Shown here piece by piece: positions 2,034 to 62,636 of a stretch of 64,000 nucleotides of DNA. The DNA is taken from assembly GCF_002741055.1 (NCBI RefSeq), contig NZ_CP016809.1:1696501-1760500 (forward strand), read 5' to 3'. Below the pieces are notes generated by a model that did not search any database, had not been told where the DNA came from, and was given only the letters and a program-made list of their open reading frames with translations. Within the stretch, counting starts at the first letter, position 1. The number at the start of each line of letters is the position of its first letter. Source of the stretch: Paenibacillus ihbetae. Lineage in GTDB: Bacteria > Bacillota > Bacilli > Paenibacillales > Paenibacillaceae. Position numbers and translations under genes: made by a program.

Positions 2034-2714
2034 ATGCTTAAACATGAAAAAGCGGTCGTCGTGTTCAGCGGCGGCCAAGACAGCACCACCTGTCTGTTCT
2101 GGGCGAAGGAACGCTTTGCCGATGTGGAGACGGTCACCTTCGATTACGGTCAGCGTCATAAGCTTGAAATCGAATGCGCATCCCAGATTGCCAAAGAGCA
2201 AGGCGTGAAGCAAACCGTACTCGATATGAGCCTGTTGAACCAGCTGGCTCCCAATGCGTTGACACGCACCGATATTGAAATCAAGGAAGGCGACCAAGGC
2301 TTGCCGACCACGTTCGTGGAAGGACGGAACCTGCTGTTCCTGAGCTTTGCTGCCGTGCTTGCGAAAGGGATCGGAGCCAAGCATCTCGTAACCGGCGTAT
2401 GCGAGACGGATTTCAGCGGCTATCCCGATTGCCGCGACAGCTTCATCAAGTCGCTCAATGTGACATTGAATCTGGCTATGGATTATCCTTTTGTCATTCA
2501 TACCCCACTCATGTGGCTGGATAAAGCGGAAACCTGGGAGCTCGCTGACCAGATGAACGCACTCGAATATATCCGTGATCATACGCTGACCTGCTATAAC
2601 GGCATTAAGGGCGACGGCTGCGGGGAATGCCCTGCCTGCAAGCTGAGAAAAGCCGGCTTGGATAAATATTTGAGCCGCAGGAATGCAAGCGTTGAAGGGG
2701 GACGATCCGTATGA
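2034..2714 (+). CDS. queC: 7-cyano-7-deazaguanine synthase QueC
   Basis: A 226-residue enzyme that uses ATP and ammonia to convert 7-carboxy-7-deazaguanine to preQ0. It has the N-type ATP pyrophosphatase P-loop [10 protein letters not shown] at residues 9-18 and the C-terminal zinc-binding cysteine set in [13 protein letters not shown]. Length matches the family. It is the first gene of the queuosine operon, under the preQ1-I riboswitch, and its stop overlaps the queD start (ATGA). Confidence 0.97.
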
Positions 2715-3202
2715 GCCGAGAACCAGGAGCATTCAGGATCGTTGAACGGCTGCAGAAGCTCGGCGAGGATATCGATGCCGGCAGCCTGCGCTACCACCGG
2801 AAGCGCGTGCTCGTCTCCAAGGAATTTACATTCGATGCGGCGCATCATCTGCATGCTTATGAAGGGAAATGCAAGAATCTCCATGGGCATACGTACAAAG
2901 TCGTATTCGGCATCAGCGGCATTCCGGATGAAGTCGGGATTACCGTTGATTTCGGCGATATTAAGGAAATATGGAAATCGGAGATCGAGCCTTATCTCGA
3001 CCACCGGTATCTGAACGAAACGCTACCTCCAATGAATACCACGGCGGAAAATATGGTCGTATGGCTGTTTGAGAAAATGGAAGCCGCCCTCAGCGCCAAG
3101 CCGTCCCATGAGCAGCAGGGAACACGCACCGAATTCGTGCGTCTGTTCGAAACACCGACCAGTTATGCCGAGGTCAGACGGGAGTGGATGCTAGGTGAAT
3201 AA
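2711..3202 (+). CDS. queD: 6-carboxy-5,6,7,8-tetrahydropterin synthase QueD
   Basis: A 163-residue enzyme of the 6-pyruvoyl-tetrahydropterin synthase family, acting on 7,8-dihydroneopterin triphosphate. The zinc-binding histidines are in [20 protein letters not shown], which also carries the catalytic Cys. The first 35 residues are an extension before the usual start of the fold. The start overlaps the queC stop by four bases and the end overlaps queE, indicating tight translational coupling. Confidence 0.95.
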
Positions 3203-3989
3203 TCAGCATAGGAAGGCAGAGACCGGCGCAAGCGGAGGCGCCTTTGCTGCGGCAACCGTTGACCGTCCCATTCCAGTGATGGAAATCTTCGGTCCTACGG
3301 TCCAAGGCGAAGGGATGGTTGTCGGCCGTAAAACGATGTTTGTCCGCACGGCAGGGTGCGATTACCGCTGCTCGTGGTGCGATTCCGCGTTTACATGGGA
3401 CGGATCGGCGGCAGATTCGATCCGCAAGATGAGCACTGATGAAATATGGCAGGAGCTGTATCGTCTTGGGGGAGAACGGTTCGACCACGTCACCCTTTCG
3501 GGCGGCAACCCCGCCCTGCTGTCCCAATTAGGCTCCCTTGTGGATGAGCTGCACCGGCACGGCATTACCGTTGCGGTAGAGACGCAAGGCTCCCGCTGGC
3601 AGGATTGGCTGAACGACATTGATGAAGTCACCATTTCACCGAAGCCGCCGAGCTCCGGTATGGATACGGATTGGGAGAAGCTTGACATCATGATCTCCCG
3701 CTTATCCGCGCGCCAGCCCGGCCGCTCCTTCAGCTTGAAGGTGGTCGTATTCGACGATGCTGACCTTGCTTACGCCGAAACGGTGCATGAACGGTATCCG
3801 AACGTCCCGTTTTACCTACAAACCGGCAATCCGGATGTCAGCACGAGCGATACCGCTTCCCATGTCGGCTACCTGCTGGAGCGGTACGAGTGGCTGGTCA
3901 ATGCGGTCATGCAGTCGGATCGTCTCAACGATGTGCGCGTCCTGCCCCAGCTGCATACGCTCGTGTGGGGCAACAAGCGTGGCGTCTAG
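3195..3989 (+). CDS. queE: 7-carboxy-7-deazaguanine synthase QueE (radical SAM)
   Basis: A 264-residue radical SAM enzyme making the deazapurine ring from carboxytetrahydropterin. The cluster motif is CDYRCSWCD, with the CxxxCxxC spacing, preceded by MFVRTAGC. TLSGGNPAL supplies the Gly-rich SAM-contacting segment, and EIFGPTVQGEGM is the typical family N-terminus. The GTG at 3195 overlaps queD by eight bases and adds about 27 residues before that conserved start, so a later start at MEIFGP (3282) remains possible. Confidence 0.95.
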   Translation: MNNQHRKAETGASGGAFAAATVDRPIPVMEIFGPTVQGEGMVVGRKTMFVRTAGCDYRCSWCDSAFTWDGSAADSIRKMSTDEIWQELYRLGGERFDHVTLSGGNPALLSQLGSLVDELHRHGITVAVETQGSRWQDWLNDIDEVTISPKPPSSGMDTDWEKLDIMISRLSARQPGRSFSLKVVVFDDADLAYAETVHERYPNVPFYLQTGNPDVSTSDTASHVGYLLERYEWLVNAVMQSDRLNDVRVLPQLHTLVWGNKRGV

Positions 3990-4067
3990 ACAGCAGCCCG
4001 GTATACGCTGGAAGGACCTAATGAACCATAACAATAAATGATCATAAGATAAGGGAGTTATGCATTC

Positions 4068-4565
4068 ATGGCTGGAAGACAAAGAGAGGAAATGCAAGAT
4101 GTGACCCTGCTGGGCAACCAAGGCACGAAATATACCTTCGAATATGATCCCGGCATTCTGGAGAGCTTCGATAACAAGCATCCGTATCGGGATTACTTTG
4201 TCAAATTCAATTGCCCCGAGTTTACAAGCCTGTGCCCGATTACGGGTCAACCGGATTTTGCCACCATTTATATCAGCTACATTCCGGATATTAAAATGGT
4301 AGAGAGCAAGTCCCTGAAGCTGTATCTGTTCAGCTTCCGCAATCATGGCGATTTCCATGAGGACTGCGTCAACATCATCATGAACGATCTGATCAAGCTG
4401 ATGGATCCGAGATATATTGAGGTGTGGGGCAAATTCACTCCGCGCGGCGGGATATCCATCGATCCATACTGCAACTACGGCCGTCCCGGAACCAAATACG
4501 AGGAAATGGCTGCACAGCGTCTCATGAATCATGATTTGTATCCTGAAAAAGTGGATAACCGTTAA
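4068..4565 (+). CDS. queF: NADPH-dependent preQ0 reductase QueF
   Basis: A 165-residue nitrile reductase converting preQ0 to preQ1, of the short unimodular (Bacillus) type. The catalytic Cys is in [13 protein letters not shown], followed by the family motif [16 protein letters not shown]. The C-terminus carries [18 protein letters not shown] precedes the ATG. It completes queC-D-E-F, so the operon encodes the path from dihydroneopterin triphosphate to preQ1, the riboswitch ligand. Confidence 0.97.
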
Positions 4566-4605
4566 TGACAAGCTGCAAGCTTTAAAGCAATAAAAGTTAG
4601 GCTAT

Positions 4606-4720
4606 GGGCTTTAGCTAGGGGCTTTAGCTAGGGGCTTTAGCTAGGGGCTTTAGCTAGGGGCTTTAGCTAGGGGCTTTAGCTAGGGGCTTTAGCTATGGGC
4701 TTTAGCTATGGGTTTTAGCT
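4606..4720 (+). repeat. 13-bp tandem repeat, about nine copies
   Basis: The unit GGGCTTTAGCTAG is repeated almost perfectly about nine times; the last copies vary by one or two bases (TATGGGC, GGTTTTAGC). It lies between queF and the terminator at 4963 and has no coding content that I can support. Confidence 0.95.
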
Positions 4721-4781
4721 TAAGGTTTTATTTGAGCTTTGAGCTTTGAGCCCTAAGCTTTGAATTTTGAGGTCCGAGATC

Positions 4782-4872
4782 CAAGCTACAAGTTACAAGT
4801 TACAAGTTACAAGTTACAAGTTACAAGCTATAAGCTATAAGCTATAAGCTATAAGCTATAAGCTACAAGTTG
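4782..4872 (+). repeat. Heptad tandem repeat, 13 copies
   Basis: Thirteen 7-bp units run in perfect register: CAAGCTA once, CAAGTTA five times, CAAGCTA, TAAGCTA five times, then CAAGTTG. Just upstream (about 4735-4765) related GAGCTTT and CTTTGA heptads occur. Consensus YAAGYTR. There are no spacers, so this is not a CRISPR array. Confidence 0.95.
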
Positions 4873-4962
4873 CATGTTTCAACTTTCAGGTACGCTTACA
4901 AGGTACAGATAACCCATTACTTGTAATACGATGCTTGCCTTTCAGGCAAACATAAAAATAAG

Positions 4963-4990
4963 GGCCGCTCCATGAATGGAGCGGCCTTTT
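4963..4990. terminator. Bidirectional terminator
   Basis: A perfect 10-bp stem GGCCGCTCCA/TGGAGCGGCC with a TGAA loop has T-rich tracts on both strands. It lies between the que operon and the convergent EcsC-family gene. Confidence 0.88.
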
Positions 4991-5033
4991 AGTGCCTCAA
5001 TTACTTCTGACGGAGCTGAAAAGCTTACAGCGG

Positions 5034-5939
5034 CTATTGCATACTGCGCAGCCGATGGTTCACGCGGCGTTTTTTGTAGAGCATCTTCCCGGCTTCAGCC
5101 ACATCCCCGATCGTGCCCTTATTGTTGATCGAGCCGAATATAATTCCGGCAATCGGAATGAGCTGAAACAGCTTCTTCATTCCGAAGCTGTCCGTGTACG
5201 ACTGGACCACTTCCCTCCAGCCCTGGAGCTGGGAGAATACCTGATCCGTCCCCTTCTCGTCATCAAAGCTGGCGAGCTCCTCGAGCACCGCCTTCTTGCC
5301 GACGATATCGGCAGAAGCGAACTGCAGGCATTTCACGATAAACACCCGCTCCCTGGTATCATTCGGATCATAGCCGTAGCACAGCGCCATTTCCTGAAGG
5401 ACCTTTAACGACTGTCCGAGCACCATCGGAATATCGACCGCAATCGTAAACACGCCGCCGATCCCGGTGGCTGCCCCTTGGGCTGCGGCAAATTTGACAC
5501 GTTTAGCCGTCAATATATCCGCCGCAGTATCCATGACCTGCAGCGGCAAGCGCGAGGCCTCGGTTAAGGTCAGCTTCTGATCGCCTGGGCGATCCGCCGC
5601 CTCCTCACGACGAGTGCGGGAGGGATCGCTTTCTTCTTCGATCTCCCAGGCTTCGGCTTCGTTAGAAGCAGTACCCTCAGCTCCCGCCGTTTTGGCTAAC
5701 AGATTCATTACAGACTGCTCGCGCACCAGATATTGGCCGCCGGTCTGGATAAAGCTGCCGACATCGTTAAGCGCCTCGCCGATTTTATTCCGCACGGCCT
5801 TCGGTGTCAGCCGATCCAGAAGCATGAAGGGGATTCTGCCGAGCTTTTCCCAGAACATCACGTCCTTCTGTTCTTTCTCCCACACCAAGATCTCTTGAAG
5901 CTGGGACTCCAACACTTGCCGTGATTCCATTTCTGTCAT
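5034..5939 (-). CDS. EcsC family protein
   Basis: A 301-residue protein of the EcsC family, named after the third gene of the Bacillus ecsABC locus; its biochemical role is unclear. Features include a hydrophobic Gly/Ala stretch around AAAQGAATGIGGVFTIAVDIP, the family-like LCYGYDPNDTRERVF segment, and a second hydrophobic stretch IPIAGIIFGSINN near the C-terminus. An acidic linker lies at about residues 85-120. I chose the ATG at 5939 because GAGGAG is nine bases upstream; the ATG at 5960 overlaps that ribosome site. It stands alone, with no ecsAB-type ABC genes nearby. Confidence 0.85.
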   Translation of the reverse strand: MTEMESRQVLESQLQEILVWEKEQKDVMFWEKLGRIPFMLLDRLTPKAVRNKIGEALNDVGSFIQTGGQYLVREQSVMNLLAKTAGAEGTASNEAEAWEIEEESDPSRTRREEAADRPGDQKLTLTEASRLPLQVMDTAADILTAKRVKFAAAQGAATGIGGVFTIAVDIPMVLGQSLKVLQEMALCYGYDPNDTRERVFIVKCLQFASADIVGKKAVLEELASFDDEKGTDQVFSQLQGWREVVQSYTDSFGMKKLFQLIPIAGIIFGSINNKGTIGDVAEAGKMLYKKRRVNHRLRSMQ

Positions 5940-6161: not shown

Positions 6162-6653
6162 TTATTTGCCCAAAAATGCGTTCAGCATCCAGGCATGCTT
6201 CTGAATATCGGCAATCATGCCCGTGAACAAATCGGCGGTGGCATCGTCGCCTTCTGCATCGGCTGCCGAAATCCCCTGCTTGAGCTCGGCTGCAATCGTT
6301 TCATAATCGGCAACAAGCTGACGCACCATTTCTTCGGCGCTGCTCTCGCCGGAAGCCTCTTGGAGCGTCGTCAGCTGCAGATACTGGGCCATGCTTGCTG
6401 CCGGTCTGCCGCCGATGGCCAACAGACGCTCAGCCAGCTCGTCCACGTAATCGGCTGCCGCGTTATAAAGCTCTTCGAACTTCTCATGCAGTACGTAAAA
6501 CTGGGGCCCTTTCACATACCAGTGGTAGTGGTGCAGCTTCACGCCCAGCAGGCTCCAGTTCGCAACTTGGATATTAAGGATGCTATAGAGCTCGTTGCCG
6601 TCCTGCAGGTTTTGGGTCCCAGAAACATTCGCGTTCGTATTTGTGTTCATCAT
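6162..6653 (-). CDS. dps: Dps-family ferritin-like DNA-protection protein
   Basis: A 163-residue ferritin-like protein expected to form a 12-subunit cage that oxidises and stores iron and guards DNA against peroxide. The inter-subunit ferroxidase ligands lie in LHHYHWYVKGPQFYVLHEKF and the following DYVDELAER. A short Asn/Thr-rich N-terminal tail precedes the fold. GGAGACGATATAG precedes the tandem ATGs; either could be used. A PerR-like box covers the predicted transcription start, consistent with peroxide induction. Confidence 0.93.
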   Translation of the reverse strand: MMNTNTNANVSGTQNLQDGNELYSILNIQVANWSLLGVKLHHYHWYVKGPQFYVLHEKFEELYNAAADYVDELAERLLAIGGRPAASMAQYLQLTTLQEASGESSAEEMVRQLVADYETIAAELKQGISAADAEGDDATADLFTGMIADIQKHAWMLNAFLGK

Positions 6654-6682
6654 CTATATCGTCTCCTTTAGTTGATATTGTA

Positions 6683-6699
6683 TTTAGACTTATTCTAAA
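6683..6699 (-). promoter_or_regulatory. PerR-like operator upstream of dps
   Basis: TTTAGACTTATTCTAAA is an inverted repeat with 6-bp arms and a 5-bp centre, close to the PerR/Fur-type consensus TTATAATNATTATAA. It sits immediately downstream of the -10 element, a position expected for repression. Fur or Zur cannot be excluded from the box alone. Confidence 0.65.
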
Positions 6700-6710
6700 T
6701 CCTTGTCTTT

Positions 6711-6739
6711 ATAATATCAGATTTTCATCTTATTTGCAA
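6711..6739 (-). promoter_or_regulatory. SigA-type promoter of dps
   Basis: On the minus strand TTGCAA and TATTAT are separated by 17 bases, followed by the PerR-like box and then the dps ribosome site. Confidence 0.65.
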
Positions 6740-6895
6740 AGCATTTCATCCATTCTCAGATGAAGATAGGATGAAGATTTTTTCCTGTTTTTATACCTAT
6801 TATAAGTACTCCTTACAGAGCCGGCTGTGATCTGTATCAAGTTTGTTCTTCAGTATCAAGGCTGACAGCGATGTATCCATAAAATTCTGTTAATC

Positions 6896-6910
6896 TGCAA
6901 ACGTTTACTG
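6896..6910 (+). promoter_or_regulatory. Possible CcpA cre site
   Basis: TGCAAACGTTTACT matches the cre consensus TGNAANCGNWWNCA at all but the last position. It lies about 90 bases upstream of the GNAT gene. The remaining 6740-6980 interval shows no other recognisable element. Confidence 0.3.
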
Positions 6911-6987
6911 GAAATGCCGCGGTCTGTCACCTTATACTGGTGTTATGTGTAATGATATCGACAACCCTAGGGAGGCGAAATAACCAA

Positions 6988-8097
6988 GTGCATATTTCTA
7001 TCATGAATTCCGATCAATTGACCCAGGCCATTGAATTATCCGATCGTATTTTTCTGAAGCAGCCCGAACAGCCCTCCATGGGCATATCCTTCCCGCTTAT
7101 CTTCTCACCGGGAATCAGCCATTCATACGGCGCATGGGATCAAGAGAAGCTTGTCTCGTTCATGGGATTTGTCCCGTTTATGATGAAGATTCGCGGAGCA
7201 AGGCTGAACGTATTCTCGATCGGATCCGTATGTACGGACCCTGACTATCGGGGGCAGCGGCTGGCCGGTTCGCTCCTTCAAGCATGCATCGAGCATGGCG
7301 AAGCTTCGGGCGCTTCCCTGATCTTCATCTCCGGCGGGAGATCGCTGTACACCCGTGCCGGCAGCCGGCTGTTCGGCAGGGCCCAACGCTTTCAGATGAC
7401 CCCATCCTTGGTCGAGCCTCTTCGGGCTTCGACCGGAAAGCAGGTTCAGATCCGCGCCATGAAGCCGGAGGATCTGTTACAAGTTCACGCTCTTATGGAA
7501 GATCGGGAAGCCGGATATGCCTCGACACCTACGGAGCTTGGCAAGCTGCTTGACGCCAGCGCCTATTCCAACGTGATCCGGCTTGAGCAGCAAGTGCTTG
7601 TCGCCGAGGAGAACGGGAAGTTGACGGCATTTGCAATCATTGCTGTACCCGGCACCGTGATGACGCCTTCCCGTGCATCCACGCTTGTGGAATGGGGCGG
7701 CAGCCCGGAAGCCGCCGCGCTGGTCATTGCGGAAGCGATCGCCGGCTTTAACCTGCCGGAGCTGATCATTCCGCTGGCCTGGCAGGACCAAGAGCTCGCA
7801 GCGCTGCTACAATCCGCCGGTGCTGTGGCGGAATCGATTCAGAATGACGGGACGGTCTACCTGGTAAACGGAATCCGGCTTCTGGATCAGCTGGCTCCGC
7901 TGCTGCCGGAAGGAGCCATCCAAGCCGATGGGGAGCATGGACCTTATCGCACCACCATCTCGGGGGAGACCGTCGTCCTGGACGACGAGGGATTGCTCTC
8001 GCTCCTGTTCGATCCGCTGTCACCGTACCGGGTTCAAGGGACAGCTGCGTTCGACCCGGTTCCGCTGCCTTATACCTCCGGGCTGCAGTATATATAA
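6988..8097 (+). CDS. GNAT family N-acetyltransferase
   Basis: A 369-residue protein with an N-terminal GNAT domain. The acetyl-CoA binding segment is VCTDPDYRGQRLAGSLLQ at about residue 75, followed by FISGGRSLYTRAG. The C-terminal half looks like a second, degenerate GNAT domain, an arrangement seen in Eis-like and related two-domain enzymes. Substrate unknown. The GTG at 6988 follows GGAGG by 12 bases; an ATG five codons later is an alternative. It stands alone, with a possible cre site upstream. Confidence 0.8.
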   Translation: MHISIMNSDQLTQAIELSDRIFLKQPEQPSMGISFPLIFSPGISHSYGAWDQEKLVSFMGFVPFMMKIRGARLNVFSIGSVCTDPDYRGQRLAGSLLQACIEHGEASGASLIFISGGRSLYTRAGSRLFGRAQRFQMTPSLVEPLRASTGKQVQIRAMKPEDLLQVHALMEDREAGYASTPTELGKLLDASAYSNVIRLEQQVLVAEENGKLTAFAIIAVPGTVMTPSRASTLVEWGGSPEAAALVIAEAIAGFNLPELIIPLAWQDQELAALLQSAGAVAESIQNDGTVYLVNGIRLLDQLAPLLPEGAIQADGEHGPYRTTISGETVVLDDEGLLSLLFDPLSPYRVQGTAAFDPVPLPYTSGLQYI

Positions 8098-9236: not shown

Positions 9237-10190
9237 ATGAATTGGTTCAAGCCATTCGAGGATGATCTTGCGGCCGTATTCGCCCAATGCGAAGCCCGAT
9301 TATCGGACCTGCCCCCGCCCTTGGACGAAATCGGAATTTCGTATCTGCGCGCTTTCGATGTCTTCGAGCAAGACAGCTCCAAAAACTACATATGTTATCT
9401 GCTTCCCTTCTGGATGAAGGAACTTACCACGCTCCCTGCAGAACATTACCGCCACCTGGCAGCAGCCAACATCATCGGCATGCTCTACTATTTCATTCAA
9501 GATGACATCATGGACTCCGTTCAGGAGAGCCCATCCCCGCTCCATGTGAAACAGCATCTCGCACTCGCAACGCTTCTATACTCGGAATTCCTTACGATGT
9601 ACCAAGCCTACTTCCCGCCTGACTCCGTATTCTGGCAGTTTCTCAAAGATTACAATCAAGAGTGGTCGGATGGCGTCATACACGAGAACAGCGCTGATTA
9701 TTTCGTGACCAAACCGATGGAGGTCGCCAAGAAAGCCGCTCCGGTTAAACTCGGCAGCACCGCCGTCCTTCTGCTGGCTGATCGTCCAGAGCTGATACCA
9801 TCCGCGAACGAAATGATGAACCACGTGCTGCTGACCTTGCAGATGATGGACGATTGGATGGACTGGAGGCAGGATCTGGCAGACGGCAGCTACAACTGCT
9901 TGCTCGCCATGATTAAAGCAAGATTAGGGCGTCCATGGAATGCGACGCTAACCGAAACGGAAGCCCAGGAGGCGATTTATGTCCACAACCTATTGAAGCC
10001 TTATGCAGCGGTTGCGGCTGAGACGCATACCCGCCTGACAGAGACGGCGATTGACGCCCCGAATCTGATATCCTTCCATTATACGTTGGTAGAGGAGCTC
10101 ATTCGGGATGCGAATCATATCGAAAACAGCAAGCAAACCTTAACTTTCGGAGGGTTAAACTATTACCTCTCTTTATCAACCAAAAAATAA
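9237..10190 (+). CDS. Class I isoprenoid synthase-fold protein, possible peptide prenyltransferase
   Basis: A 317-residue mostly helical protein with two Asp-rich metal-binding motifs. The first is QDDIMD at residues 88-93 and the second is DDWMDWRQD at residues 205-213. This arrangement is diagnostic of the trans-isoprenyl diphosphate synthase and class I terpene synthase fold. Overall sequence is not typical of chain-elongating FPP or GGPP synthases, so the product is unknown. Only 71 bases separate it from a small peptide gene with an NHLP-type leader, and both share orientation. ComQ, which prenylates ComX, belongs to the same fold, so peptide modification is a reasonable inference. The start follows TGGTGATTCG. 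Confidence 0.8.
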   Translation: MNWFKPFEDDLAAVFAQCEARLSDLPPPLDEIGISYLRAFDVFEQDSSKNYICYLLPFWMKELTTLPAEHYRHLAAANIIGMLYYFIQDDIMDSVQESPSPLHVKQHLALATLLYSEFLTMYQAYFPPDSVFWQFLKDYNQEWSDGVIHENSADYFVTKPMEVAKKAAPVKLGSTAVLLLADRPELIPSANEMMNHVLLTLQMMDDWMDWRQDLADGSYNCLLAMIKARLGRPWNATLTETEAQEAIYVHNLLKPYAAVAAETHTRLTETAIDAPNLISFHYTLVEELIRDANHIENSKQTLTFGGLNYYLSLSTKK

Positions 10191-10261
10191 TAGATTTTAA
10201 ATTTATTCCATGGTATCCTTAAAGAGTAAATAATAACCATTTATTTGAAAGGGTGATTCTA

Positions 10262-10501
10262 ATGACAACAGAAGCCATCTTTCAAACGCAACTGATTCAA
10301 AAAGCATGGGAGGATCCTAGCTTTAAAGCAAAGCTGGTCAGCGATCCCAAATCAGCGATCAAGGAAGTTCTTGGCGTGCGAATCCCCGACCACATTGAAG
10401 TAAGAACGCTCGAAGAGCAGCCCAATGAGCTGTACCTGGTCATTCCTCCGAATCCGGCAGGCGTGATCAAGTCCGAAGCCAAGGAAAGAGCCATCTGGTA
10501 A
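10262..10501 (+). CDS. NHLP-type leader peptide, putative RiPP precursor ending in Trp
   Basis: A 79-residue peptide starting MTTEAIFQ, with AAAGGG eight bases before the ATG. The body resembles the nitrile hydratase-like leader (NHLP) family: LIQKAWEDPSFKAKLVSDPK, then AIKEVLGV, IPDHIEVRTLEE and LYLVIPPNP. The usual terminal Gly-Gly cleavage site is absent. After VIPPNPA only GVIKSEAKERAIW remains, ending in Trp. The upstream partner is an isoprenoid synthase-fold enzyme. No peptidase-containing ABC exporter lies nearby. It is either a modified secreted peptide or a stand-alone NHLP-like protein with another role. Confidence 0.75.
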   Translation: MTTEAIFQTQLIQKAWEDPSFKAKLVSDPKSAIKEVLGVRIPDHIEVRTLEEQPNELYLVIPPNPAGVIKSEAKERAIW

Positions 10502-10584: not shown

Positions 10585-10612
10585 GCAGCTTACGATTTTA
10601 TTCGTAAGCTGC
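10585..10612. terminator. Strong hairpin over the kinase stop codon
   Basis: GCAGCTTACGA pairs perfectly with TCGTAAGCTGC around a 6-nt loop. It lies between the peptide gene and the convergent kinase and contains the kinase TAA. No T tract follows, so it may be a termination or mRNA-stability element. Confidence 0.5.
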
Positions 10613-12487
10613 AGGCAGCGTGATCACTGCATCCGTCCCCACTCCTTTTTTACTTGTAAAATGGATGCTGCCATCCATCGCCTCGATAATTCGAAACGTG
10701 ACCATAAGCCCGAGTCCGGTGCCCTTGGTCTTGTTGGAGAAATACGGCTCCCCCAGCCGGGCCAGCACATCCTCCCCCATTCCTTCGCCGTTATCCACGA
10801 CGTGTATGTAAACCCGTCCCTGCTTCTGATAGCAGCGGATCTGGATCAGCCCCTCCTCCTGCAAGGCTTCAATGCTGTTCTTAATAATATTTATGAACGC
10901 CTGCTTGAACTTGGAGGAATTGCCGCGTACCGCAAGCTCCTCGGGAATGTCCACGGTGATCTTCCCGCCGTGCAGATGCGCAAGGGGCGCAAGGATCCCC
11001 TCGATATGCTTGAATTCGTCGGAGATCTGAAGGACGGTGTCCTTGCCGAACTCCGGCTTGGCAAAAGTCAGGAAATCCGTAATAATGCCCGACGCCCGAT
11101 CCAGCTCCACCAGAGCCAGATCCAGATATTCGCGTTCAGCCGCCTTGGCTTTTCCCATGAGCAGCTGTAGAAATCCTCGAGTTACTTGAAGCGGGTTGCG
11201 GACTTCATGGGCTACCGAGGCCGCAAGCTCGCTGATGATCTCCATCTTTTCAGACCGCTGCAGCTCATTGTTGAACATCTCCAGCTCCTTGGAGTATTCG
11301 AGAATCTGTTCATGGTTTTTGGCAAAATGGCGCCCCAGAATAACGATGAGCGACACGATAAAGACGACAGCGCCCCATTTCCATAAAAACAGATTATAGC
11401 TGCCACGGCTGAGGAAAAATTGAAGCAGCTCGCCCAATCCGACGACGGCAAACGCGGCAAAGCCTGCATTGAAAATGACGGCATCCTTGTTTCCTTTAAG
11501 GGAAAAATACATTGAGCTTCCGATCAGCAGCATGAATTGCAGGATCATGACAACGCCGAGCACCTGAACGGAAAAGAAGTAGTACAGCCCAAACCAACGG
11601 TTTTCGGCCAGTTGATTGGCGATCAGGAACAGAAAACAAAACAGGGAGTAAAACACTTGGAATTGGCGCAGCTTGTGAAGCATCCCCTTCCAGCCATGAC
11701 CGAATATTTTTTCGAAAAACAGGCTGAACGAAGGCAGAAGGACAAATAATGAAATGTCATACATGTGAGTAAAGATGCTGCCGTATTGTTCAAACACGGT
11801 ATAAAGAAAAGGGGAGTAAGTAAACACCAGGATGCCGACGGATAAGATGGTTAAGGCCAAAGACAGGACGGCGGCCAGGTATTTATTGTTCAGAAAAACA
11901 GCACAGATGAGCATCACGAAGGCAATGAATAAGAAGGCGCTGCCTAAAATGATATCGCCCAGATTCGATCGGACGAACCGATTCAGAAGCTCGTGGTAGG
12001 GGCCGATCAGGATTTTTCCATCGACCGTAATATGATCTCTCGCCGTTTCCAGCCATATATACAGGTCCTGGCCGGACAAATCCTCATGCAGCGGGAGCAA
12101 AACATGGTTCAGCTCATAGTTGTAGGTTCTTGCGGATTCATAGATTTTCCGTTCGCCGGCAAACACCGCAACCTGCTGTCCGTGAAGCTTGTCTATCAGT
12201 ATGCCTTGCGAGGAGGAAGCGTCATCCGGAAGTTTCATATGAATCCAAGCCGACGTCTTGCTCTGTGGCTTCGGGTGTTCGGCAATGCGCGCGGAGCCCT
12301 CCGCCCAGACCTCCTTCTCAGGCGGCGCACGATCCGGCACTTCCCCTGCATCCGACCATAGAATCCGCCACTCCTTAATCACAGCCGATGCTGGCGCACC
12401 GGAAGCGCCGGAGGCTAACCCCGGAATACCGAGGGTAATACCAATTGCGATGATCAGGAACATACCGATTCTCCATCCAGGTCTCAT
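10598..12487 (-). CDS. 7TM-type membrane sensor histidine kinase (first of a tandem pair)
   Basis: A 629-residue kinase. A signal peptide (1-28) precedes an extracytoplasmic domain (about 29-178), then seven or so membrane segments (about 180-395), a short coiled coil, a HisKA domain with H-box SVAHEVRNPLQVTRGFLQLL, and an HATPase_c domain with DNGEGM and GTGLGL. The architecture resembles 7TMR-DISM kinases, and the catalytic part resembles sporulation kinases that feed Spo0F. It has no adjacent response regulator. It is a clear paralogue of the kinase at 12628-14535 and converges on the isoprenoid synthase/peptide pair. Confidence 0.88.
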   Translation of the reverse strand: MRPGWRIGMFLIIAIGITLGIPGLASGASGAPASAVIKEWRILWSDAGEVPDRAPPEKEVWAEGSARIAEHPKPQSKTSAWIHMKLPDDASSSQGILIDKLHGQQVAVFAGERKIYESARTYNYELNHVLLPLHEDLSGQDLYIWLETARDHITVDGKILIGPYHELLNRFVRSNLGDIILGSAFLFIAFVMLICAVFLNNKYLAAVLSLALTILSVGILVFTYSPFLYTVFEQYGSIFTHMYDISLFVLLPSFSLFFEKIFGHGWKGMLHKLRQFQVFYSLFCFLFLIANQLAENRWFGLYYFFSVQVLGVVMILQFMLLIGSSMYFSLKGNKDAVIFNAGFAAFAVVGLGELLQFFLSRGSYNLFLWKWGAVVFIVSLIVILGRHFAKNHEQILEYSKELEMFNNELQRSEKMEIISELAASVAHEVRNPLQVTRGFLQLLMGKAKAAEREYLDLALVELDRASGIITDFLTFAKPEFGKDTVLQISDEFKHIEGILAPLAHLHGGKITVDIPEELAVRGNSSKFKQAFINIIKNSIEALQEEGLIQIRCYQKQGRVYIHVVDNGEGMGEDVLARLGEPYFSNKTKGTGLGLMVTFRIIEAMDGSIHFTSKKGVGTDAVITLPAAYE

Positions 12488-12627: not shown

Positions 12628-14535
12628 TCATGTTGAGCTTCCTTGATCCGGGGCACAAGCGGGGAAGCGGATAATCGCTTCGGTGCCGGCTCCTTTTCTG
12701 CTGTTGAAGTGGATGGAGCCATTCATCGACTTGATGATCCGGAAGGTAACCATCAGACCAAGACCTGTTCCCTTGGATTTATTGGAGAAATACGGCTCTC
12801 CGAGTCTGGTCAGCTCAAGGGGATCCATCCCGACCCCATTGTCCTGGATATGGATGATGACCTCATTCGATTGGGCATATGCCCAGATGCGGACTGTTCC
12901 TTCCCCGTCGAGTGCTTCAATCCCGTTCTTCACGATATTTATCATCGCCTGCTTCAGCTTGGAGGAATTACCGGTGATATACAAGTCCTCCGCTTCTTCC
13001 AGCTCGATCGTACCGCCTGCAAGGTTGGCAAGCGGAAGCAGAATGCCGGTAACATGCTTTAGCTCCTCGTATACGTTCAGCGGCACGATCTGTTCGACCT
13101 GCGGCTTGGCAAACGTCAGAAAATCCGTAATAATCCCAGACGCCCGGTCCATCTCCTTCAAGGCCAAAGCGAAATATTCCTTCTCATCCGGCTTGGCGCT
13201 CTGGGAGAGCAGCTGCATAAAGCCGCGCGTTACCTGCAGCGGATTACGGACCTCATGCGCCACCGACGCGGCCAATTCGCTAATAATCTCCATCTTCTCG
13301 GAGCGCTGCAGCTCATTGTTGAACAGCTCCAGCTCCCGGGAGTATTCGAGCACCTGCTGATGACTCCTGACGAATTTTCGCCCCAGCATGACGATCAGCG
13401 ATACGACGAGCGCAATAACGCCCCATTTCCATAGATAGAATTCATAGTTGCGGCCTTTCAAATAAAAGCTTATCAGGTCCCCCAGCGTCAGCAGGGCCAT
13501 CATGCCGAATCCGAACGAGAAAATATAAGCGTCTTTATTACGTTTGGAGGCATACAGGATCGTAATTCCGATAAGCAGCGACAGCTCCAGAATAATCAGA
13601 ATGCCGAGGATCTTCACGGTAAACAAATAATAGAGATCATGAAACGGATGGGGGCCGACCAGCTGAATGATAAGCAGCATCAGGCACAGCCCGGAATAAC
13701 CCATTTGGAATCTTCGGCCATAGCGGATGACCCGGTAGGGACCCGGACCGTAGATTTTTTCAAAGTAAAAAAACATCGCAGGCATAATAGCGAACAATGC
13801 CGTATCAAACAGGGTTACCCATACGCTTCCCAGATCGCCATAAAACGTGTAGAGGAATGGCGAATAGGCAATGAGCAGCGCGCCGAACGCAAAAATAACG
13901 ACGCACAAGGCAAGCCAGCTGGCTACCGTATGCCTTGGGAGAAACAGGCAGCATACGGTCATAACCGCCGCGATGAACAATAAGGAGCCGCCAAGAATGA
14001 AATCCTCCAGATCCTTCTTGATGAATACTCCCCGCATATGTTCATATTCTCCGAGCTCGATATCGCCCTGGATTCCTAATGCGGTATCCGTCCCCTTTGA
14101 CCAGATATAGACGGTTTTGCCGGCATCCTCCCCGTTAACGGGCAGCAGCAGCGTATGGTTCATATATACAAAATTCCGCTTCACTTCGTATAACGGCAGA
14201 TCTTCCAGGAACGCCGACACATCCTGCCCTTTCACCCGCTCGATCAGCACAGCCGATTGTCCCGGCGGCAGCTTCGGCAGCGTGAACCGGTTCCATGACG
14301 AAACAACCCCGTCCGGCCGGGATGGGGGTGCCGCATCCTTATGCGCATCAATCCATTGTCTTCGGTTCCTGACGCTTGCTGGATTCACGTCCCCTTCCCG
14401 ATTCTCGAACTCCCACAGCACCTGCCAGTCGGGGATTACGGCGGGAGCTGCTTGCGCATGAGCGGGAGCCCCCCATAATGACATGAGCGGCAGTATCAGC
14501 AGCAGCAGGAGTATGTATTTAGGTACATCCTTCAT
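12628..14535 (-). CDS. 7TM-type membrane sensor histidine kinase (second of a tandem pair)
   Basis: A 635-residue paralogue of the kinase at 10598-12487, with the same order: signal peptide, extracytoplasmic beta-rich domain, multi-span membrane domain, HisKA, HATPase_c (DNGVGM, GTGLGL). The block NNELQRSEKMEIISELAAS and the H-box are nearly identical in both, whereas the extracytoplasmic domains differ. I start at the ATG at 14535 because GAGGTGCG lies upstream, the same ribosome-site context as its paralogue; an ATG at 14568 is possible. No response regulator is adjacent; a Spo0F-type phosphorelay is likely but not shown. Confidence 0.87.
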   Translation of the reverse strand: MKDVPKYILLLLLILPLMSLWGAPAHAQAAPAVIPDWQVLWEFENREGDVNPASVRNRRQWIDAHKDAAPPSRPDGVVSSWNRFTLPKLPPGQSAVLIERVKGQDVSAFLEDLPLYEVKRNFVYMNHTLLLPVNGEDAGKTVYIWSKGTDTALGIQGDIELGEYEHMRGVFIKKDLEDFILGGSLLFIAAVMTVCCLFLPRHTVASWLALCVVIFAFGALLIAYSPFLYTFYGDLGSVWVTLFDTALFAIMPAMFFYFEKIYGPGPYRVIRYGRRFQMGYSGLCLMLLIIQLVGPHPFHDLYYLFTVKILGILIILELSLLIGITILYASKRNKDAYIFSFGFGMMALLTLGDLISFYLKGRNYEFYLWKWGVIALVVSLIVMLGRKFVRSHQQVLEYSRELELFNNELQRSEKMEIISELAASVAHEVRNPLQVTRGFMQLLSQSAKPDEKEYFALALKEMDRASGIITDFLTFAKPQVEQIVPLNVYEELKHVTGILLPLANLAGGTIELEEAEDLYITGNSSKLKQAMINIVKNGIEALDGEGTVRIWAYAQSNEVIIHIQDNGVGMDPLELTRLGEPYFSNKSKGTGLGLMVTFRIIKSMNGSIHFNSRKGAGTEAIIRFPACAPDQGSST

Positions 14536-14690
14536 TTTGTGCGCACCTCTAACCGTCCTTCGTTTCATAATGTAAGGTCTAACTGCGTTTACGCGTCATG
14601 TCCATTCGACAAACTTCGTCTTCATTTACAATCAATATACCATGAAAAACAACATCAGTTGTCAGAAAAATTTTAGTTATTATGAAAATG

Positions 14691-61318: not shown

Positions 61319-61396
61319 ATGAGCAAACGTGGAGGAATCAATCTGATTGATCCAAGCGAAGCAAGTAAAGGAGTGTTGTCTGCTGACTGTGATTAA
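61319..61396 (+). CDS. 25-codon leader ORF upstream of the KinB-like kinase
   Basis: The ATG at 61319 follows TTGGAGGGC with ideal spacing. It encodes 25 residues beginning MSKRGGINLID and ending in SADCD. Its TAA overlaps the GTG of the kinase gene by three bases. The ribosome site is far stronger than that of the kinase itself. It is either a leader ORF that couples kinase translation or a tiny expressed peptide. Confidence 0.5.
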   Translation: MSKRGGINLIDPSEASKGVLSADCD

Positions 61397-62636
61397 GGAT
61401 ACTCTGCTGCAGCTCTTATTTGCGTTAATGCCTTCCGTTGTCTACAGCATCTATTACAGGAATCTGACCGTCAACTATTCCCGCAGCTTCATCATCGTGA
61501 TCTGCTCGCTGTGCCTGGTCCTGTCCATGACCTTCGCTTCATCGGCGCAGGCTGGCCTGATCTTCGATATCCGCTATGTCATCATGTTCTTCGGCATCCT
61601 GTTCGGGGGGCTGACCACGGGCTGGATATTGCTCGTCGAATTTTTGATCTACCGGTTATACATCGGCGGCTCGGGCGTGATCGACGCCATCATTATCCTT
61701 GTGATTACGTTTCCGCTATCGGTCATGCTCGCATCGGTGTACCAGAGAACGCGGCATCGGCTATGGATCGTTTTTACGGCCGGAATCAGCTTCTCCGTCA
61801 TCCCGCTTACCGTGCTCTACATTACGAAGCCCGATTACATTATGAACCAATTATTATTTAACATTCTGGCCATACCTGTTCAGAATTCGCTCGGCATCTG
61901 GCTGCTTATCACCCTGTTCAACAAATCGGTAACCGACAAAGAGCTTTCCTTGAGATATGTCCAGAACGAGAAAGCGGAGGCCGTCAATCATGTCGCCGCC
62001 TCGCTCGCCCATGAAGTCCGCAACCCGTTAACCACTGTCCTGGGCTTCCTCCAATTAATGAAGAGCGGTACCTTCTCTCCCGAAAAAACGAACCGGTTTC
62101 TCGAAATCAGCATGGAGGAAATCCGGCGAACCGAGCAGATTCTGTCCGATTATTTGTCCATCAGCAAGCCGGCCGCTTCGATCCGGCAGCGACTTGAGCT
62201 CATTTCCCAGATGCAGGCCGTCGTTGAGGTCATGACCTCTTATGCGAATATGAATAACGTGGCGCTCCGCATCCGCTGCCCCCAGACGCCGATCTTCATA
62301 TCCGGCAGCACGGCGGAGCTGAAGCAGCTGCTGGTCAATTTCATTAAAAATGCCATCGAGGCCAGCAAGGATGTCACGAAAGGCACGGTGGAGATTTCGA
62401 TCCGGGAGGAGCCGCCTCATGTCGTCATCCAAATCGAGGACAACGGAATCGGCATGACCGAGGAGCAGTTAAACCGGCTGGGCTCGATATACTATTCCAC
62501 CAAAATGAACGGAACCGGGCTCGGGCTGACCTTCTCCTACCAAGCCATCCGCGCGATGAACGGCAGCGTATCCGTCAGCAGCGAGCCGCTGTCCGGCACG
62601 ACATTTGTAATCCGGCTGCCGATTGCGGGAGGATGA
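61389..62636 (+). CDS. KinB-like sporulation-type sensor histidine kinase
   Basis: A 415-residue membrane kinase. Five or six spans form a 5TM-5TMR_LYT-type sensor (LLFALMPSVVYSIYYRN, LGIWLLITLFNKS), followed by HisKA with SLAHEVRNPLTTVLGFLQLM and HATPase_c with DNGIGM and GTGLGL. This is the KinB layout; such kinases start the Spo0F phosphorelay. The GTG at 61389 yields the natural-looking MIKDTLLQ start and overlaps the leader ORF; a TTG at 61347 is an alternative. Confidence 0.85.
   Translation: MIKDTLLQLLFALMPSVVYSIYYRNLTVNYSRSFIIVICSLCLVLSMTFASSAQAGLIFDIRYVIMFFGILFGGLTTGWILLVEFLIYRLYIGGSGVIDAIIILVITFPLSVMLASVYQRTRHRLWIVFTAGISFSVIPLTVLYITKPDYIMNQLLFNILAIPVQNSLGIWLLITLFNKSVTDKELSLRYVQNEKAEAVNHVAASLAHEVRNPLTTVLGFLQLMKSGTFSPEKTNRFLEISMEEIRRTEQILSDYLSISKPAASIRQRLELISQMQAVVEVMTSYANMNNVALRIRCPQTPIFISGSTAELKQLLVNFIKNAIEASKDVTKGTVEISIREEPPHVVIQIEDNGIGMTEEQLNRLGSIYYSTKMNGTGLGLTFSYQAIRAMNGSVSVSSEPLSGTTFVIRLPIAGG

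Follow-up and report, generated by a model that had tools for sequence, protein, structure and literature searches.

The locus analysed here lies in a 64,000-nucleotide stretch of the Paenibacillus ihbetae genome (NZ_CP016809.1, positions 1,696,501 to 1,760,500), hereafter the window, and comprises homologues of palQ and palX and a pair of palP histidine kinase genes (Table 1). Reading the sequence alone had picked out a synthase with both Asp-rich motifs, followed 71 bases downstream by a 79-residue NHLP-type peptide that ends in Trp, and all of this was confirmed, as was the lack of a Gly-Gly cleavage site in the window PalX. The palP kinases, absent from that reading, turned out to be linked to palX about as tightly as palQ is.

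Table 1. Positions of genes, domains and motifs at the palQ-palX-palP locus, numbered from the first letter of the window.
Feature	Positions	Strand	Description or basis
palQ homologue	9237..10190	+	317 aa, predicted Trp prenyltransferase, isoprenoid-synthase fold
First Asp-rich motif of PalQ, D89 to D93	9501..9515	+	Alignment of 102 homologues
Gln202 and second Asp-rich motif of PalQ (D205, D206, D209, D213)	9840..9875	+	Alignment of 102 homologues
palX homologue	10262..10501	+	79-aa NHLP-type precursor peptide; TIGR03793 above cut-off
NHLP body of PalX, residues 7-67	10280..10462	+	TIGR03793 match 7-67
Codon of C-terminal Trp79, predicted prenylation site	10496..10498	+	Trp conservation in PalX relatives
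palP1, orphan histidine kinase, convergent with palX	10598..12487	-	HisKA and HATPase above cut-off
H-box and specificity stretch of palP1 (H427 to L442)	11162..11209	-	Specificity residues QVGFQL
palP2, second tandem orphan histidine kinase	12628..14568	-	46% identical to palP1; QVGFQL

The window PalX scored 69.2 bits against TIGR03793, for which the curated cut-off is 50.9, placing it among the NHLP precursors, whose usual home is RiPP natural products. It is identical to the PalX of P. lactis (L003), and conservation covers the entire NHLP body, beyond the tail alone. The window PalQ has the isoprenoid synthase fold, both Asp-rich motifs, the Gln that precedes the second of them and an adjoining NHLP-type partner with a C-terminal Trp, as expected of a PalQ-type enzyme. 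Among 102 aligned homologues including the window protein, D89, D93, Q202, D205, D206 and D209 were invariant, D213 was present in 101 and D90 in 99; Q202 and the second-motif positions align with Q197, D200 and D204 of the P. alvei enzyme. The published K39 is Ala in the window and Lys in 48 of the 102 homologues, and its non-conservation is also stated in PMC10853753. The second Asp-rich motif is conserved, but its essentiality is unsupported because P. alvei PalQ mutated in the Asp pair of this motif remained active (PMC10853753). Searching with PalQ gave 17.6 bits against Pfam DUF5685, far under its cut-off of 26.7, and a single PDB sequence match, a designed protein with an E value of 0.4.

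Promoter and terminator scans yielded no more than shuffled sequence did. Antiphage defence was rejected, as PADLOC gave no match for PalQ, PalX or PalP1, and so was a viral origin, no relative being confirmed in viral contigs. Elsewhere in the window, four consecutive ORFs at 2034-4565 (+) read like a queuosine-precursor cluster and are presumably QueC, QueD, QueE and QueF.

Relation to the PalQ/PalX/PalP system of Paenibacillus alvei

The window locus belongs to a known system, since PalQ and PalX of P. alvei were described in December 2023 (Miyata, Ito and Fujinami 2023; PMC10853753) and PalQ is treated as an established tool enzyme in a 2026 review. The P. alvei locus came from a search for RiPP clusters, and its PalQ moved C5, C10 and C15 prenyl groups onto PalX; NMR of the C5-prenylated core peptide placed the group on indole C3 of the C-terminal Trp, with formation of a pyrroloindole, and the reaction was abolished when alanines followed the Trp (PMC10853753). 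The NHLP body enhanced the reaction without being essential, P. alvei lysate cut PalX between T72 and D73, and the cluster, found to be conserved across various Paenibacillus, also encodes the histidine kinase PalP (PMC10853753).

The window locus resembles that of P. alvei in its three genes, in the fold and catalytic positions of the enzyme and in an NHLP-type peptide with a C-terminal Trp. It differs in the PalX tail (SEAKERAIW in the window, DNVRRFFW in P. alvei; PMC10853753), in having two tandem palP copies where one was seen in the P. alvei DSM 29 record (L055), and in PalQ itself, which shares 40-42% identity with three proteins of P. alvei. In the L055 record the end of palX lies in another frame than the peptide of PMC10853753.

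Judged by this homology, prenylation of the window PalX Trp by the window PalQ is likely, and the prenylated NHLP-type peptide proposed in the sequence-only reading is strongly supported as far as its chemistry goes. The natural-product or signalling system that it put forward as new had already been published. Its suggestion that the leader serves recognition agrees with the boost that the NHLP domain gives to the P. alvei reaction, in which, however, the domain is dispensable. The signalling function and the phosphorelay connection set out below are new proposals, which we make with moderate confidence. Among the papers listed in the open-access literature searched, we recognised none that connects PalQ, PalX or PalP with sporulation, with Spo0F or with quorum sensing, and this literature gave no account of the function of the native PalX peptide; PMC4008528 and PMC7538429 were also consulted.

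Distribution and variation of PalQ and PalX

The genus draw gave PalQ in 79 of 100 genomes and the family draw in 163 of 197. In the order draw it occurred in 123 of 198 genomes, spread over four family groups, and in the class draw in 26 of 299, all 26 of them in the window's own family. Strong PalX matches were present in 79/100 genus and 163/197 family genomes, and comparison of the lists showed these to be the same genomes as those with PalQ; the counts omit weaker NHLP matches in two further genus genomes and eight further family genomes, none of which carries PalQ. The synthase-peptide pairing suspected from the sequence alone is hence conserved in other genomes. PalQ/PalX is a near-core trait of the family, a spread more in keeping with a part in regulation than with an antibiotic particular to some strains.

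Of the 251 palQ loci that were confirmed, the best 80 (L003-L082) served for a comparison of PalX tails. Trp was the last residue in 64 of the 79 complete peptides (L074 being omitted) and lay within the final three residues in 78; 13 peptides had one residue after the Trp, one had two, and one (L055) runs on in the other frame. The peptides of additional stretches ended in WRS or WRT (L088, L089), WGN (L085) or WGTGG (L091). Thus the C-terminal Trp to which the first reading drew attention is conserved, but in some lineages, represented by 14 of the best 80 loci together with L085, L088, L089 and L091, it stops one to four residues short of the end. Mapping the Trp-not-last label (23 rows) on a tree of 98 PalQ proteins gave seven changes, gains and losses not being told apart, and at least five of them were forced by well supported branches. 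The tree omits L055, in which the frame runs on, L074, at a contig end, L062 and L077, whose stretches contain no palX, and the short duplicates L083, L084, L086 and L087; L071, with two palX genes of which one ends in Trp, is scored as Trp-not-last.

A near-terminal Trp conflicts with the strict terminal preference of the published PalQ, which does not predict such ends. Either the PalQ enzymes of these lineages can, like ComQ, use a Trp that lies near the end, or the peptide is first trimmed by a peptidase, and no position in the PalQ alignment cleanly separated the Trp-last from the Trp-not-last lineages. The Trp-not-last lineages offer naturally occurring variation for the design of enzymes that work on a non-terminal Trp. 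Tandem palX genes with visibly different tails were seen beside one palQ and one palP in L099 (five genes, 6296-7781, +) and L107 (four genes, 3962-5461, -).

To compare the divergence of the three proteins, pairwise distances were correlated over 61 single-copy loci. PalX distances correlated best with those of the PalP sensor part (r 0.76 for the body and 0.72 for the tail), ahead of the PalP kinase part (0.68 and 0.66) and PalQ (0.71 and 0.65). The partial correlation of PalX with the sensor given the kinase part was 0.48 for the body and 0.41 for the tail (permutation p 0.001), which is supportive only, because kinship was uncorrected and the sensor part is more variable. Near the window, palX was the most conserved of palQ, palX and palP1: non-synonymous divergence between the window and its relatives was 0.00-0.09 for palX (eight relatives), 0.05-0.40 for palQ (seven, L012 left out for a frame slip) and 0.03-0.31 for palP1 (seven, L010 left out as its kinase is nearer palP2). 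ComX pherotypes are fast-changing signals, and the slow change of palX, unlike theirs, counts somewhat against a pherotype-like quorum signal.

PalP kinases and a proposed link to the sporulation phosphorelay

A palP-like kinase was present in 77 of the best 80 of 251 palQ loci, the exceptions being L062, L077 and L074, whose stretch stops at the contig edge. Clustering of ORFs of at least 110 aa within 8 kb of palQ in the window and these 80 loci, with families named from their first residues, recovered palQ from 81 loci and the kinase from 78, along with two ORF sets that run antisense to the kinase, one in 34 loci and the other in 27. No other family occurred in more than 26 loci, no transporter or immunity family recurred within the 8 kb, and a response-regulator-like family was found in 12 loci, about 7 kb away. 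Adding 20 stretches from divergent groups gave 101 loci with 110 palX genes, including two repeats (L090 repeats L080, with an identical PalQ, and L101 is apparently L077). In this set 105 of the 110 palX genes face a palP directly and 107 follow a same-strand palQ, and all three that lack a preceding palQ face a palP; those not facing a palP are in L037, L053 and L064, where palP lies beyond palQ, and in L074 and L092. palX-palP is therefore a repeated unit, the pattern expected of a signal and its receptor. Two loci depart from the usual linkage: in L101 two palX-palP pairs sit about 13 kb away from palQ and thus persist without being closely linked to it, and in L062 palQ has intact motifs with no palX or palP within the fetched stretch.

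PalP lacks a PAS domain, and its model predicts a signal helix, then a beta domain on the outside and roughly seven helices in the membrane, followed by HisKA and HATPase domains; the membrane topology is tentative because the pLDDT is 75.6. Among the 50 Foldseek matches listed for the whole model kinase cores lead, with no named fold for the outside domain. The best PDB match of PalP was KinB of Geobacillus (3d36; 4.8e-51, the next match being at 3.1e-27), and of the NCBIfam models AtoS came first and KinD second, both far under cut-off.

Specificity residues were read as in a table of PMC6136694, at offsets (H+7, +8, +11, +12, +14 and +15) that we inferred by matching kinases to it. This was possible for 51 of the 54 HisKA kinases in the window's genome, three without a readable H-box being excluded. 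The pattern x-x-G-F-Q-x was carried by exactly seven of the 51: both PalP kinases (QVGFQL) and kinases reading TAGFQL, TSGFQL, TTGFQL (twice) and AVGFQL. None of the seven has a response regulator within 9 kb, whereas 41 of the 44 non-GFQ kinases have one within 2.5 kb and three are orphans (Fisher p 1e-6). PalP is itself an orphan, as Spo0F-type kinases are, the nearest REC domain being more than 20 kb from either palP. One of the two TTGFQL kinases lies in the window as well (61347-62636, +) and is a candidate sporulation kinase.

Five of the six specificity residues of PalP are those of KinB (TVGFQL); the first is Gln, where the table gives Thr for all five B. subtilis kinases. Of 133 PalP matches in the loci, some of them fragments, 114 read QVGFQL, two were unreadable and 17 were off at one or two positions (QVGFQI in 11, QVGFQV in three, and QVGFQF, HVGFQI and QVGMQV in one each). 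In the relatives listed for another PalP, 120 in number, the residues were QVGFQL in 118 and QVGFQV in two.

Spo0F is present in the window's genome, recognised by its position between genes that we take to encode CTP synthase and fructose-bisphosphate aldolase, as in the B. subtilis gene order. Another REC gene, at G000:5530519, was rejected as Spo0F since it sits among flagellar-type genes; it is presumably CheY. A 2025 survey describes the phosphorelay as well conserved in Paenibacillus. The KinB match, membership in the GFQ orphan group and the presence of Spo0F and the phosphorelay together lead us to predict that PalP feeds Spo0F. Weighing against this prediction are the Gln at the first specificity position, the missing PAS domain, the three orphans outside the GFQ group and the ranking of AtoS ahead of KinD. 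PMC6429003 reports full or partial rescue of sporulation in a B. subtilis kinase mutant by Kin1377 and Kin1038 of P. polymyxa, a species whose PalP-like kinase P0146 carries QVGFQL; either Kin was considered as a possible PalP.

Proposed pathway and comparison with known systems

We propose that PalQ prenylates the C-terminal Trp of PalX and that the product is sensed by PalP and passed to the sporulation phosphorelay, a reading to which we give a probability of about 0.5. Counting against it are the residues that follow the Trp in some PalX relatives, which P. alvei PalQ does not tolerate, and L062, with a palQ that lacks palX and palP nearby. By extension from P. alvei, PalQ with a prenyl diphosphate and Mg would alkylate indole C3, upon which the pyrroloindole would close, the NHLP body of PalX aiding docking. 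The tail may then be released, cleavage being known from P. alvei lysate only, or prenylated PalX may be held at the membrane. The pairing of the genes suggests that the modified tail would be the PalP ligand, read by the outside beta domain and the membrane helices, and the specificity residues and orphan status of PalP suggest a signal running from PalP through Spo0F to Spo0A and on to sporulation or another lifestyle choice. Only tentatively would we generalise this to a RiPP-derived pheromone in most of the Paenibacillaceae examined, in which a small protein prenylated on a Trp zero to four residues from its end, at times encoded in tandem arrays, would act through a dedicated seven-helix orphan kinase on Spo0F and Spo0A.

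It is possible, but unlikely, that prenylated PalX is never exported and, lipid-anchored at the inner membrane, regulates PalP from inside as a checkpoint and not a pheromone. The missing Gly-Gly site of the window PalX, the lack of a recurring exporter nearby, and the conservation of the whole NHLP body in what is the slowest-changing part of the locus near the window would suit such an arrangement, but the T72/D73 cut made by P. alvei lysate would free a tail, and the large outside domain predicted for PalP is what one would expect if its ligand came from outside the cell. We consider it rather improbable that PalQ and PalX make a secreted natural product, such as a prenylated antimicrobial, which PalP only controls or senses incidentally. 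NHLP precursors are usually RiPP precursors, the P. alvei locus emerged from a RiPP cluster search, and PalQ-prenylated peptides can gain antimicrobial strength, as noted in the 2026 review; against this stand the near-core occurrence of PalQ with PalX (163/197), the lack of a recurring transporter or immunity family nearby and the slower change of palX than of palQ near the window. Less probable again is a correct signal-receptor pairing in which PalP acts on Spo0A directly or on a non-sporulation regulator instead of Spo0F: Kin1038 of P. polymyxa is reported to bypass Spo0F and Spo0B (PMC6429003), and the first specificity residue of PalP is unusual, but the other five match KinB and the GFQ orphans are sharply set apart. 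That PalQ acts as a conventional terpene synthase, with the peptide an unrelated neighbour, as its two Asp-rich motifs and the database names of some relatives (terpene synthase, class 1 isoprenoid biosynthesis enzyme) might imply, is scarcely credible given the genome-for-genome co-occurrence with PalX, the P. alvei PalQ assay and the Gln beside the second motif in 102/102 homologues.

If the proposed pathway is true, a prenyl-peptide signal feeds sporulation in a family of spore-formers relevant to dairy spoilage and bee health. PalQ has already drawn interest as a tool for peptide lipidation, and the locus survey adds candidates for the receptor of its native peptide and for the pathway downstream.

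The body of the window PalX passes the cut-off of the NHLP leader family of RiPP precursors (TIGR03793), but a Gly-Gly site is missing and NHLP exporters do not recur in the neighbourhood. With ComQXPA of Bacillus the window locus shares an isoprenoid-synthase-fold enzyme, a peptide with a near-end Trp, a membrane histidine kinase and, probably, the C3 prenylation chemistry. ComQ lacks the second Asp-rich motif (PMC10853753), whereas the window PalQ keeps both; ComQXPA has the adjacent response regulator ComA, whereas the window locus has no comA-like regulator beside it and instead pairs an NHLP-type precursor with a KinB-like kinase of the HisKA type. KinA-KinE of B. subtilis and KinB (3d36) of Geobacillus are, like PalP, orphan HisKA kinases, and PalP is distinguished from them by its first-position Gln, its predicted seven-helix membrane sensor with an outside domain, and its fixed partner palX.
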